Source: Haemophilus influenzae
GTDB taxonomy: Bacteria; Pseudomonadota; Gammaproteobacteria; Enterobacterales; Pasteurellaceae
DNA length: 64,000 nt
Direction: 5' to 3'
NCBI RefSeq assembly: GCF_019703545.1
Contig: NZ_AP018771.1
Location: 992,001 to 1,056,000, forward strand
The position numbers were made by a program, and so were the translations under genes. This document shows positions 36,948 through 43,955 of the stretch, piece after piece (within the stretch, counting starts at the first letter, position 1; each line of letters opens with the position of its first letter). The notes under the pieces are model-generated. The model did not search any database. It saw only the letters and a program-made list of their open reading frames with translations, and had not been told where the DNA came from.

Positions 36948-37793
36948 ATGTCAATTGCTAGAAAACATGATCTTAAAAATAAACTCATCGTTATTACTGG
37001 TGCAGGTGGAGTTTTATGTGCCTTTTTAGCTAAGCAGTTGGTTCATACACAAGCTAACATCGCTTTATTAGATATTAACTTTGATGCGGCTAATGCTGTT
37101 GCTGATGAAATTAACCAACAAGGCGGGAAAGCAAAAGCATATAAAACGGATGTATTGGATATTGATAGTCTAAAAGTAGTTCGGGAACAAATTATGCTGG
37201 ATTTTGGTACTTGCGACATTTTAATTAATGGTGCGGGAGGTAATAATCCGAAAGCGACTACAGATAACGAATATCATCAACTTAATCTTAACGAAAATAC
37301 CAAAACATTTTTTAATTTAGATAAATCAAGCATCGAGTTTGTGTTTAATTTGAACTACTTAGGAACACTTTTACCTACTCAAGTTTTTGCTCAAGATATG
37401 ATTGGTAAACAAGGTGCAAACATTCTAAATGTGTCTAGTATGAATGCCTTTACTCCATTGACAAAGATTCCTGCGTATTCTGGTGCGAAAGCCGCTATTA
37501 GTAACTTTACCCAATGGCTGGCAGTGTATTTTTCAAAAGTGGGCATTCGTTGCAATGCTATTGCTCCAGGTTTTTTAGTGAGCAACCAAAATCAAGCATT
37601 ACTTTTTGATGAACAAGGAAAACCAACACCGCGAGCAAATAAAATTTTAACCAATACTCCAATGGGACGTTTTGGTGAACCAGATGAACTTGTTGGTGGT
37701 GTGCTGTTTTTAATTGATGAAGCTTACGCAAGCTTTGTAAATGGAGTGGTATTGCCAATTGATGGTGGTTTTTCTGCTTATAGTGGTGTTTAG
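36948..37793 (+). CDS. SDR-family oxidoreductase, probable fructuronate reductase (D-mannonate oxidoreductase)
   Basis: Predicted NAD(P)H-dependent reduction of D-fructuronate to D-mannonate, the substrate of UxuA. The 281-residue short-chain dehydrogenase has a cofactor loop (VITGAGGVLCAFLA, residues 16-29 from this start), NGAGG, NVSSMNAF, the catalytic YSGAK (Tyr and Lys) and PMGRFGEPDELVGG. It resembles the short-chain type of UxuB used by Bacillus and relatives (YjmF), not the long-chain E. coli UxuB. The start at 36948 has a GAGGG box five bases upstream; the ATG at 36933 lacks one. First gene of the accessory operon. I recall a related SDR (HI0048) near eda in Rd. Confidence 0.85.
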   Translation: MSIARKHDLKNKLIVITGAGGVLCAFLAKQLVHTQANIALLDINFDAANAVADEINQQGGKAKAYKTDVLDIDSLKVVREQIMLDFGTCDILINGAGGNNPKATTDNEYHQLNLNENTKTFFNLDKSSIEFVFNLNYLGTLLPTQVFAQDMIGKQGANILNVSSMNAFTPLTKIPAYSGAKAAISNFTQWLAVYFSKVGIRCNAIAPGFLVSNQNQALLFDEQGKPTPRANKILTNTPMGRFGEPDELVGGVLFLIDEAYASFVNGVVLPIDGGFSAYSGV

Positions 37794-37815
37794 TGACAGT
37801 GAATTAGGTGAAAAA

Positions 37816-38643
37816 ATGCAAAATTTCAGTAAGCAAAAAGAGGTTATTGTTTGCGTAGATTCTGATGGATGTGCAATGGATACAATGAATCTTAAACACG
37901 AAAAATGTTTTGGGCCTTGTGCGGTAGATACCTTTCATATTGAAGATAGAGAGCGTTTTCTTTCTTTATGGAACAAAATTAATTTATTTTCTGAAACACG
38001 AGGTTGTAATCGTTTTAAAGGCTTAGTGTTATCTCTCGAAGAGTATGGATATCAAGGCGACATTTCTATATTTAAATCATGGGTGAGTCGCACTAAAGAG
38101 CTTTCTAATCGAGCCTTGAAACAAGAGATTGAGATTTCACCATCAGAGGATCTAACTCTTGCGTTGCGATGGTCGGAACAAGTTAATCAAAGTATTATTA
38201 CGCTCAAAGAAGAATTTAAAACGTTTCCTAATGTGCAGCAAAATCTGGCATTTATTAAAAGATTTGCGGATGTTGCCGTAGTGAGTGCAGCTAATAATGA
38301 AGCCATTATTGATGAGTGGGGAAAATACCATTTATTAGAGAGCGTTAATATTATTTTTGGACAGGATCAAGGTAGTAAAGCAGATAGCCTAAACGAGCTG
38401 AAAAAATATGGCTATCTGCCAGAAAATATCTTGATGGTGGGCGATTCACCTGGTGATTTATTTTCAGCAATGGCAAATAATGTATGTTTTTTCCCTATTT
38501 TATGTGGCTTCGAAAGTCAGTCTTGGCAGCAATTAATTTTAGAGGCGTTAGGAAAATTAGTTTATGGTCAATTTGATACGGGATACCAGCAGACATTGAT
38601 TGAACAGTTCCACCATAATTTGAATACACAATCAAATAATTAA
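37816..38643 (+). CDS. HAD-superfamily hydrolase, substrate unknown
   Basis: Cytoplasmic 275-residue haloacid dehalogenase-like phosphatase. The nucleophile motif is VDSDGCAMD (Asp15 and Asp17), the motif II Ser is in VVSAANN, the Lys in QGSKADSL, and the acidic motif is VGDSPGDL. About 120 residues between motif I and II form a helical cap. The start at 37816 follows the SDR stop by 22 bases and has AGGTG upstream; the frame stays open further back but overlaps the SDR gene. It lies between an SDR and a GH3 gene, so a sugar phosphate is the likely substrate. No known named phosphatase is recognised. Confidence 0.75.
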   Translation: MQNFSKQKEVIVCVDSDGCAMDTMNLKHEKCFGPCAVDTFHIEDRERFLSLWNKINLFSETRGCNRFKGLVLSLEEYGYQGDISIFKSWVSRTKELSNRALKQEIEISPSEDLTLALRWSEQVNQSIITLKEEFKTFPNVQQNLAFIKRFADVAVVSAANNEAIIDEWGKYHLLESVNIIFGQDQGSKADSLNELKKYGYLPENILMVGDSPGDLFSAMANNVCFFPILCGFESQSWQQLILEALGKLVYGQFDTGYQQTLIEQFHHNLNTQSNN

Positions 38644-38653
38644 GGAGACAAAT

Positions 38654-41862: not shown

Positions 41863-41904
41863 ATCTCCTTCTTCTTATTTACAGAATCATTCAAAGGTAA
41901 CATT

Positions 41905-43308
41905 ATGAAATCATTTATGGATGAAAATTTCCTTCTTTCAACGAATACTGCAAAAATTCTCTATCATGATTATGCCAAAAATAAACCTATTTTTGACTAT
42001 CACTGTCATTTAAATCCAAGAGAAGTGGCGGAAAATCGTCAATTTAATGATTTAGCTGAAATTTGGCTAGAGGGTGATCACTACAAATGGCGTGCCTTAC
42101 GTACAGCTGGAGTACCAGAAGAATTGATTACAGGGAAGGCTACTAACTATCAAAAATATTTGGCTTGGGCGAAAACAGTCCCTCTTTGTATTGGTAATCC
42201 AATTTATCACTGGACACATTTAGAATTACGCCGTCCTTTTGGTATAACCAATATGTTATTTAATCCGCAAAATGCGGAAAAAATTTGGCATCAATGTAAT
42301 GAAATGTTGCAACAACCTGAATTTTCTGCGCGAGGCATTATGCAGAAAATGAACGTGAAATTAGTGGGGACAACAGATGATCCCATTGATTCTTTGCAAT
42401 ATCATCAAGCAATCAAGAATGATGAAAGTTTTGATATTGATGTTGTACCAAGTTGGCGACCTGATAAAGTATTCAAAATTGAGTTGCCACAATTTAATGA
42501 CTACCTTGTACAGTTAAGTGAAGTTGCAGATGTAGATATTTATACGTTTGCAGATTTAAAAAAAGCGTTGTTAAAACGTCTCGAATATTTTGATGCTCAA
42601 GGTTGTAAATCTGCTGATCATGGTATGGAAATTGTCCGTTTTTCAGCTATTCCAGATGAATCAGTATTGAATAGTATTTTACAAAAACGTTTGCAAAATC
42701 AACCGCTCTTGGAAGAAGAAATCGCTCAATTTAGTACTGCAATTTTAGTCTGGTTGGCTTCGGAATATTGTAAACTTCACTGGGTAATGCAAATGCATAT
42801 TGGTGCAATACGTAACAATAATAGTCGAATGTTTGCTTTACTCGGTGCAGATAGTGGCTTTGATTCCATTGGTGATCGAGCTTATGCATATCCCCTCTCT
42901 CGTTTGTTAGATGCAATGGATAAGGAAAATCAACTGCCTAAAACTATTTTATATTGCTTAAATCCTCGAGATAATGAAATGATCGCTAGTATGATCGGAA
43001 ACTTTCAAGGCGATGGTATTGCAGGGAAAATACAGTTTGGTTCTGGATGGTGGTTTAACGATCAAAAAGACGGAATGGAACGTCAGTTACAACAGCTTTC
43101 TCAATTAGGGTTACTCAGTCAATTTGTTGGAATGCTAACTGATTCACGTAGTTTTTTATCTTACACTCGCCATGAGTATTTCCGCCGTATTTTATGTGAA
43201 ATGATTGGTGGATGGGTTGAAAAAGGTGAAGCGCCAAATGACATTTCATTACTGGGTAAAATGATTGAAGATATTTGTTTCAACAATGCAAAAAATTATT
43301 TTAAATAG
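41905..43308 (+). CDS. uxaC: glucuronate/galacturonate isomerase
   Basis: Interconverts D-glucuronate and D-fructuronate (or galacturonate and tagaturonate), first cytoplasmic step of hexuronate use. The 467-residue protein matches E. coli UxaC (470) and the amidohydrolase-related fold: [18 protein letters not shown] metal motif near residue 30, [25 protein letters not shown], and [22 protein letters not shown] near the end. It follows the symporter and precedes eda by 8 bases. Its presence identifies the sugar acid released by the operon as glucuronate or galacturonate; linkage to uxuA and not to uxaA/uxaB points to glucuronate. Confidence 0.96.
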
Positions 43309-43316
43309 GGAAAATT

Positions 43317-43955
43317 ATGTCATACACAACTCAACAAATTATTGAAAAACTTCGTGAACTCAAAATTGTGCCTGTAATTGCGTTGGATAATGCAGACGAT
43401 ATTTTGCCGCTAGCAGATACGTTGGCTAAAAATGGTTTACCTGTGGCAGAGATTACTTTTCGCTCTGAAGCAGCGGCAGATGCAATTCATTTACTGCGTA
43501 CTCATCGACCCGATTTTTTGATTGCTGCGGGCACAGTTTTAACTGCGGAACAAGTAGTTTTAGCTAAAAGTAGCGGAGCAGATTTTGTGGTTACTCCTGG
43601 GTTAAATCCAAAAATTGTGAAATTATGTCAAGATTTAAATTTTCCAATAACGCCAGGGGTGAATAATCCTATGGCAATTGAAACTGCATTAGAAATGGGA
43701 ATTTCGGCGGTAAAATTTTTCCCTGCAGAGGCTTCAGGCGGAGTGAAAATGATTAAAGCATTGCTCGGTCCTTATGCTCAATTACAGATAATGCCGACTG
43801 GTGGTATAGGGCTTCATAACATAAGGGATTATCTTGCTATTCCTAATATTGTTGCTTGTGGAGGCTCTTGGTTTGTGGAGAAAAAATTGATTCAATCCAA
43901 AAATTGGGATGAAATTGGACGATTAGTCAGAGAAGTGATTGATATTATTAAATAA
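43317..43955 (+). CDS. eda: 2-keto-3-deoxy-6-phosphogluconate aldolase
   Basis: Splits KDPG into pyruvate and glyceraldehyde 3-phosphate; class I aldolase. The 212-residue protein shows the Glu of AEITFRS, AAGTVLT, VTPGLNP and GVNNPMAIETALEMGISAVKFFPAEASGGVKM, which contains the Schiff-base lysine (AVKFFPA, about residue 135). Length equals E. coli Eda. It closes the operon, eight bases after uxaC, before a terminator that carries the first uptake signal after the 9.7 kb gap. No KDG kinase gene lies in the window to supply its substrate. Confidence 0.96.
   Translation: MSYTTQQIIEKLRELKIVPVIALDNADDILPLADTLAKNGLPVAEITFRSEAAADAIHLLRTHRPDFLIAAGTVLTAEQVVLAKSSGADFVVTPGLNPKIVKLCQDLNFPITPGVNNPMAIETALEMGISAVKFFPAEASGGVKMIKALLGPYAQLQIMPTGGIGLHNIRDYLAIPNIVACGGSWFVEKKLIQSKNWDEIGRLVREVIDIIK

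Follow-up and report, generated by a model that had tools for sequence, protein, structure and literature searches.

A GH3 glycosidase and a HAD-superfamily protein in a hexuronate operon of Haemophilus influenzae: a candidate phosphorolytic route to glucuronic acid

The window analysed here is a stretch of 64,000 nucleotides from Haemophilus influenzae (RefSeq assembly GCF_019703545.1, contig NZ_AP018771.1, positions 992,001 to 1,056,000). Its hexuronate locus includes six intact open reading frames (ORFs), all on the + strand at positions 36948-43955, which encode an SDR, a HAD-superfamily protein, a GH3 glycosidase, a GPH-family symporter, UxaC and Eda. Judging from sequence comparisons, this operon on balance probably works by phosphorolysis: the symporter would import beta-glucuronides, the GH3 enzyme would phosphorolyse them and the HAD protein would dephosphorylate the beta-glucuronate-1-phosphate formed, for use in the glucuronate pathway. 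The chances lean only slightly towards a wider proposal, according to which a retaining beta-glucuronide phosphorylase and its dedicated beta-glucuronate-1-phosphate phosphatase make up a third route of glucuronic-acid release, after hydrolases and lyases, used by Pasteurellaceae, Bacillota and Treponema, in some cases alongside a GH2 beta-glucuronidase. A preliminary description of this DNA had listed the same six genes; all are present and belong to the families that it named. Families were assigned by comparing Pfam and curated-model scores (in bits) with the cut-offs of the models, as follows.

36948-37793, + strand: SDR fructuronate reductase of the UxuB/YjmF type (PRK08277 D-mannonate oxidoreductase 451, cut-off 281)
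37816-38643, + strand: HAD protein, predicted beta-glucuronate-1-phosphate phosphatase (PF13419)
38654-40414, + strand: GH3, predicted retaining beta-glucuronide phosphorylase (single Pfam Glyco_hydro_3 domain, 237)
40433-41836, + strand: GPH-family sugar:cation symporter, predicted glucuronide importer (TIGR00792 gph 279, cut-off 231)
41905-43308, + strand: uxaC, glucuronate isomerase (PF02614 724; PRK02925 689, cut-off 387)
43317-43955, + strand: eda, 2-keto-3-deoxy-6-phosphogluconate aldolase (TIGR01182 286, cut-off 156)

Among solved structures, the GH3 protein is closest to BglX (BglP; 5vqd/5vqe), with 435 bits over residues 5-584 and 40% identity over the full length, the runner-up reaching 188 bits and another near-full-length match, 6k5j, 145 bits. 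Its structural model (mean predicted local distance difference test score, pLDDT, of 83.8) superposes on 5vqe with template modelling (TM) scores of 0.87/0.91, the next structures giving about 0.73/0.71 and 0.72/0.79. Alignment with 5vqd identifies Asp284 as the nucleophile and His202/Asp200 as the His/Asp dyad that takes the place of a Glu acid/base. The two proteins thus share full-length homology, the nucleophile Asp, the Asp-Gln-His motif (D200-Q201-H202 in the window) and Asn91. From its sequence and its model, the GH3 protein is probably of the BglX phosphorylase type, i.e., a retaining beta-glycoside phosphorylase like its best solved relative.

The partner genes of this GH3 class differ from those of the BglX class. 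GH3 genes were compared in 62 stretches of DNA, 60 of which had a usable GH3, and a tree was built from 62 rows (58 loci plus BglX, a NagZ, P0024 and P0043), leaving out the truncated L062 and L089, which has a long branch. The window GH3 belongs to a clade with support of 99/96 that gathers 27 loci, P0024 and P0043 (the window side), while 31 loci and BglX lie on the opposite side (the BglX side). The HAD family of the window is found in 21 of the 27 window-side loci versus none of the 31 BglX-side loci. Conversely, a beta-phosphoglucomutase gene is found in none of the former versus 17 of the latter (within 200 bp for 10 of these 17), all these counts referring to the DNA examined around each GH3, which is short in some cases. 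In Carnobacterium, pgmB overlaps the GH3 gene. The HAD label and the mutase label each change once in all 200 bootstrap trees counted; a quick tree of 64 rows built before had led to the same result. Eleven of the 21 HAD-bearing loci (the window and ten Pasteurellaceae loci) are not independent; the other 10 come from Eubacteriaceae (L063), Treponema (L065), Clostridium (L067), Subdoligranulum (L085) and the G145 family (L096-L100 and L119).

Searches of whole genomes lead to the same association. Out of 140 Pasteurellaceae genomes, 10 carry a full-length GH3 (77-89% identity) and the same 10 carry the HAD gene, so the set is not peculiar to one strain. In all ten loci, the HAD gene lies 0-43 bp and the GPH gene 10-72 bp from the GH3 gene; UxaC and UxuA are also encoded in all of them, the SDR in nine and Eda in seven. 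UxaC and UxuA occur together in the 11 Pasteurellaceae stretches (window included) and in those of two metagenome-assembled genomes, one of Eubacteriaceae (L063) and one of Treponema (L065). Among 200 genomes of the G145 family, 20 encode such a GH3 (E at most 1e-90), of which 8 are window-side. These are exactly the 8 genomes with a strong HAD match (E <1e-40), the two genes being side by side in 7 of them, and the 12 genomes with a BglX-side GH3 alone have no strong HAD. One further genome (G950) has a weak HAD match and no GH3. In the protein database, a HAD 100% identical to that of the window is found on 101 contigs.

The HAD protein keeps all the motif groups expected of a HAD phosphotransferase (D15xD17, S157, K188 and D210/D214). 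In the alignment of its relatives, S157, K188, D210 and D214 are invariant (25/25), and D15 and D17 are conserved in at least 90% of the rows, one of which (P0141) begins after them. The translation start consistent with these relatives is 37816, an upstream ATG at 37741 being disfavoured, which corrects the preliminary description. The model of the protein has a mean pLDDT of 94, and its nearest folds, among many tied ones, are the AlnB phosphatase and beta-phosphoglucomutase. It shares with the latter the HAD superfamily, a helical cap and an equivalent place beside GH3, but it matches no beta-phosphoglucomutase model. TIGR01990 (cut-off 189) gives no match for the three HADs tested (window, L063 and L085), whereas two neighbour mutases of the BglX side score 255 and 225 bits. 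The beta-glucosyl phosphate released by a phosphorylase needs a mutase to become glucose 6-phosphate. In a uronate, C6 is a carboxylate and offers no hydroxyl for the phosphate, so a phosphoglucomutase cannot move the phosphate to C6; this would explain a phosphatase in place of the mutase. The HAD protein, called a phosphatase in the preliminary description but given no role there, is, from its sequence, probably a phosphatase in an obligatory step after GH3 cleavage. If this GH3 clade does phosphorolyse glucuronides, the HAD-superfamily neighbour in operons with BglX-type GH3 would tell which sugar 1-phosphate is made, a mutase pointing to glucosides and a phosphatase to uronides.

The following course of events can be proposed. 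The GPH symporter would take in intact beta-glucuronides, which GH3 would cleave with inorganic phosphate into beta-D-glucuronate-1-phosphate and the free aglycone. This cleavage would proceed through a covalent intermediate on Asp284, with His202 (assisted by Asp200) as the acid/base leaving space for phosphate, while Arg62 and His287 would hold the C6 carboxylate. The HAD protein would then remove the phosphate to give free glucuronate. Finally, UxaC would produce fructuronate, the SDR mannonate and UxuA 2-keto-3-deoxygluconate (KDG), before the action of a KDG kinase (none was found in the window) and of Eda. Import, intracellular cleavage and breakdown through UxaC, UxuB and UxuA, as put forward in the preliminary description, is still the likeliest reading; it is the chemistry that probably differs, being phosphorolysis rather than hydrolysis.

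Simple hydrolysis would nevertheless lead to the same end, since the net result of a phosphorylase and a phosphatase is hydrolysis. The GH3 protein could therefore be an ordinary beta-glucuronidase and the HAD protein a general sugar-phosphate phosphatase of the operon. The glucuronate genes are compatible with either chemistry, and hydrolases have been described among the NagZ-type GH3 enzymes with the same His/Asp pair. However, the HAD gene is tied to one GH3 class and replaced by a mutase gene in the sister class, an exchange of partners that is hard to explain with a hydrolase because no sugar 1-phosphate would be made. Furthermore, the nearest relative to have been characterised acts as a phosphorylase. 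A hydrolase thus appears unlikely.

The two sides of the tree also differ by individual residues. A scan of 586 positions in 24 window-side versus 32 BglX-side rows, with Pasteurellaceae down-weighted, found complete separation at three positions (62, 110 and 287). When the loci left out are restored, Arg62 is present in 25 of the 26 window-side loci that reach this position and His287 in 25 of 27; P0024 and P0043 have both. In the 32 rows of the BglX side, position 62 is Met (19), Leu (11), Thr (1) or Phe (1) and no His occurs at 287; in BglX itself, Met62 and Thr-Gln stand in place of the Arg62 and Ser286-His287 of the window GH3. In the GH3 model, position 62 belongs to the second barrel strand (60-63) and position 287 lies three residues past the nucleophile. 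We infer that Arg62 and His287 face C6 of the sugar and hold its carboxylate. The catalytic residues H202, D200 and D284 are conserved in all 27 window-side loci.

Membership of the GH3 protein among BglX-type beta-glucoside phosphorylases was considered and rejected: it belongs to a separate clade (99/96), and Arg62 and His287 are found in 0/32 BglX-side rows. An enzyme acting on beta-glucosides like BglX, as phosphorylase or as hydrolase, and merely sited in a uronate operon would fit the 40% full-length identity and the Asp-Gln-His motif, as well as the 13 window-side loci, out of 16 outside Pasteurellaceae, with no UxaC nearby. Such an enzyme is distinctly improbable given the place of BglX on the other side of the tree, the residues just described and the 0/27 clade loci with a beta-phosphoglucomutase.

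Least probable is a beta-N-acetylhexosaminidase cleaving GlcNAc-glucuronate disaccharides, an activity envisaged in the preliminary description and suggested by automatic database names (beta-hexosaminidase) and a distant similarity to NagZ, since the GH3 protein scores 125 bits with the curated NagZ model (cut-off 207), has a phosphorylase as best solved relative and has Asp-Gln-His in place of the Asp-Ser-His of the two NagZ sequences aligned with it, Ser being found at position 201 in 0/27 window-side loci. The motif rule for NagZ is D-(S/T)-H, and replacement of Gln by Ser at the position of Q201 reportedly changes the preference of BglP from glucosides to GlcNAc. NagZ/YbbD and the window GH3 have in common the His/Asp dyad in a KH-x-PG-x-G loop; they differ by the residue before His (Ser in the former, Gln in the window) and at position 91 (Asp versus Asn).

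On the BglX side, the GH3 of L088, L090, L093, L102-L104, L120 and L123 have a beta-phosphoglucomutase gene nearby and look like beta-glucoside phosphorylases. Where annotated, these BglX-type GH3 bear hydrolase names (beta-hexosamidase A for L088, GH3 protein for L090).

Several observations weigh against a beta-glucuronide phosphorylase acting with a dedicated phosphatase. Some concern the residues. L118 has neither Arg62 nor His287 despite its place within the window-side clade, while L089, which belongs to neither side, has Arg at position 62 but no His287. Position 201 varies in the clade (Gln in 19 of 27 loci, Ala in 5, Pro in 2 and His in 1). The pLDDT of the GH3 model is below 50 at residues 150-155 and 195-205. 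Other observations concern gene content. Six of the 27 window-side loci have no HAD gene in the stretch: for four of them (L082, L083, L095 and L118) it lies on another contig of the same genome, and L086 comes from the same isolate as L085, a sister plasmid that carries it. The sixth, L087 from Arthrobacter, has no HAD in its stretch (its genome beyond it was not searched) and has Leu287; its neighbours give weak UxaC-like (28%) and mannitol-dehydrogenase-type (27%) matches. In the G145 family, a contig end of G1084, a genome whose GH3 is of the BglX side alone, bears a fragment that matches the HAD weakly (E 2.7e-8). A UxaC-like gene is found in only 3 of the 16 window-side loci from outside Pasteurellaceae (L063, L065 and L087), within the DNA examined around each GH3, which is short in some cases. 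KdgK is missing from the 64-kb window, and four of the GH3-bearing Pasteurellaceae genomes (G121, G093, G083 and G092, with loci L048, L051, L052 and L053) have only kinases of at most 30% identity. The GH2 beta-glucuronidase found in three of the ten Pasteurellaceae loci could supply glucuronate without GH3. Lastly, we know of no enzyme of the window-side clade with a measured activity.

The nearest solved relative of the symporter is MelB. The preliminary description had likened it to UidB/YicJ: the GPH family holds (279 versus 231), but the UidB equivalog PRK09848 does not (236, cut-off 528). As for the breakdown of the imported sugar, the mannonate branch (SDR and UxuA) is present and no altronate-branch enzyme was found among the ORFs scanned from uxuA to eda, which favours glucuronate over galacturonate. 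UxaC, UxuB, UxuA and Eda represent four of the five hexuronate steps, KdgK being the fifth; 6 of the 10 GH3-bearing Pasteurellaceae genomes encode a KDG kinase with 40% identity or more (in two pieces in G094). The E. coli UidA/UidB system likewise has a GPH importer and feeds the glucuronate pathway with the same end, but it relies on a GH2 hydrolase where the window has GH3 and HAD.

The three Pasteurellaceae loci with both types of enzyme (L049, L050 and L055, of which L049 alone was scored against the curated GH2 model) group the GH2 beta-glucuronidase and a TRAP transporter with the GH3-HAD pair. This grouping suggests a division of labour by aglycone.

When bacteria free glucuronic acid from the conjugates and glycans of a host, this is credited almost entirely to hydrolases and lyases. 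Public records often label the present GH3 class, by automatic naming in the protein database, as beta-hexosaminidase; if the proposed function is true, a class hidden under this name is overlooked when glucuronide breakdown is surveyed. A GH3 glucuronosyl phosphorylase was not found in the open-access literature, most subscription papers being outside the scope of this search. Retaining GH3 phosphorylases for glucosides and GlcNAc, such as BglX/BglP and Nag3, are known; PMC8950772 counts two as characterised. A GH94 phosphorylase acting on a glucosyl-glucuronide is in print. Like the enzyme proposed here, it is a phosphorylase for a glucuronate-containing glycan, but it belongs to another family and, according to its title, removes the glucosyl and not the glucuronosyl unit.

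The operon is part of a larger island, the other features of which are listed below.

34217-34225, + strand: uptake signal sequence AAGTGCGGT, bounding the hexuronate island on the left (inverted second copy at 34249-34257)
34264-35448, - strand: uxuA, D-mannonate dehydratase, divergent from the operon (TIGR00695 785, cut-off 200)
35468-36223, - strand: uxuR-like GntR/FCD regulator adjoining the operon (PF00392 and PF07729; best model PRK10225 Uxu regulator 258, under its cut-off of 442)
36245-36258, no strand: UxuR-operator-like palindrome 5' of uxuR (0 mismatches to WTTGGTWTACCAAT)
36324-36596, - strand: IS1595-family transposase remnant between regulator and operon (PF12762, 1.1e-7)
36878-36891, no strand: UxuR-operator-like palindrome 5' of the operon (1 mismatch), its end 57 bp ahead of the SDR start
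43976-43984, + strand: uptake signal sequence, bounding the hexuronate island on the right

WTTGGTWTACCAAT is the UxuR operator consensus of E. coli; window-wide, the signal of such palindromes is weak (10 versus 4.4 expected, 4 of 100 shuffles reaching 10). At the DNA level, the transposase remnant is 67-68% identical to elements annotated as belonging to the IS1595 family. The sequence AAGTGCGGT, the Haemophilus uptake signal, occurs 49 times in the 64 kb versus 0.34 expected, i.e., once per 1.3 kb, whereas positions 34258-43975 contain none. G001 (L124) and G004 (L126) lack everything between the signals at 34217 and 43976 and have a single signal left; G001 is the nearest genome compared, with 48% of sampled 31-letter words in common with the window.

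Within the genus, flanking and shared genes have 93-99% protein identity. Together with the abundance of the uptake signal, this identifies the DNA as Haemophilus, probably H. influenzae or a closely related sister species. The window-type GH3 is absent from all 10 genomes examined, three of which are grouped as one species around G001, and no HAD relative was found in any of the 10, in line with the accessory nature of the set supposed in the preliminary description. In these genomes, the GH3 query gives nothing but partial matches, at about 33%, in frames of 250-352 amino acids that presumably encode NagZ. Four of the ten have uxuA. In L058 and L059, the slot holds a TRAP transporter, a zinc-binding dehydrogenase and a PfkB kinase (families scored for the L058 proteins), the content that the preliminary description had attributed to strain Rd. 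By its position and its likeness to the Rd pathway, the kinase would be KdgK. DNA identity between the window and L058 is 94% up to 36098 and 98% over 41905-44416; in between, the SDR gene alone aligns (76%). At the protein level, UxuA, UxaC and Eda are 97-99% identical and the SDR 80%.

An L-gulonate pathway (GulPQM-GulD-KdgK-UxuB) was demonstrated experimentally in Rd KW20 (eLife 2018, PMC5788505). By gene order and family, the L058/L059 cassette appears to match that of Rd. The window would then have in common with the Rd cassette the slot (as in L058), uxuA, uxaC, eda and a UxuB-type SDR, but it carries GPH, GH3 and HAD genes where the latter has a TRAP transporter and a zinc dehydrogenase. 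The operon can therefore be read as one of several exchangeable sugar-acid cassettes, and the slot that the gulonate genes occupy in Rd as common to several of them in Haemophilus. Unlike the window cassette, the other types have some uptake signals inside. The slots of G005, G006, G009 and G010 have no like content or a contig end inside. A third cassette type is found in the same slot of L060 (11520-13892) and L061, where a GH31 glycosidase and its own TRAP transporter lie beside KdgK-UxuB-UxaC, the PfkB kinase being the same as in L058 and L059.

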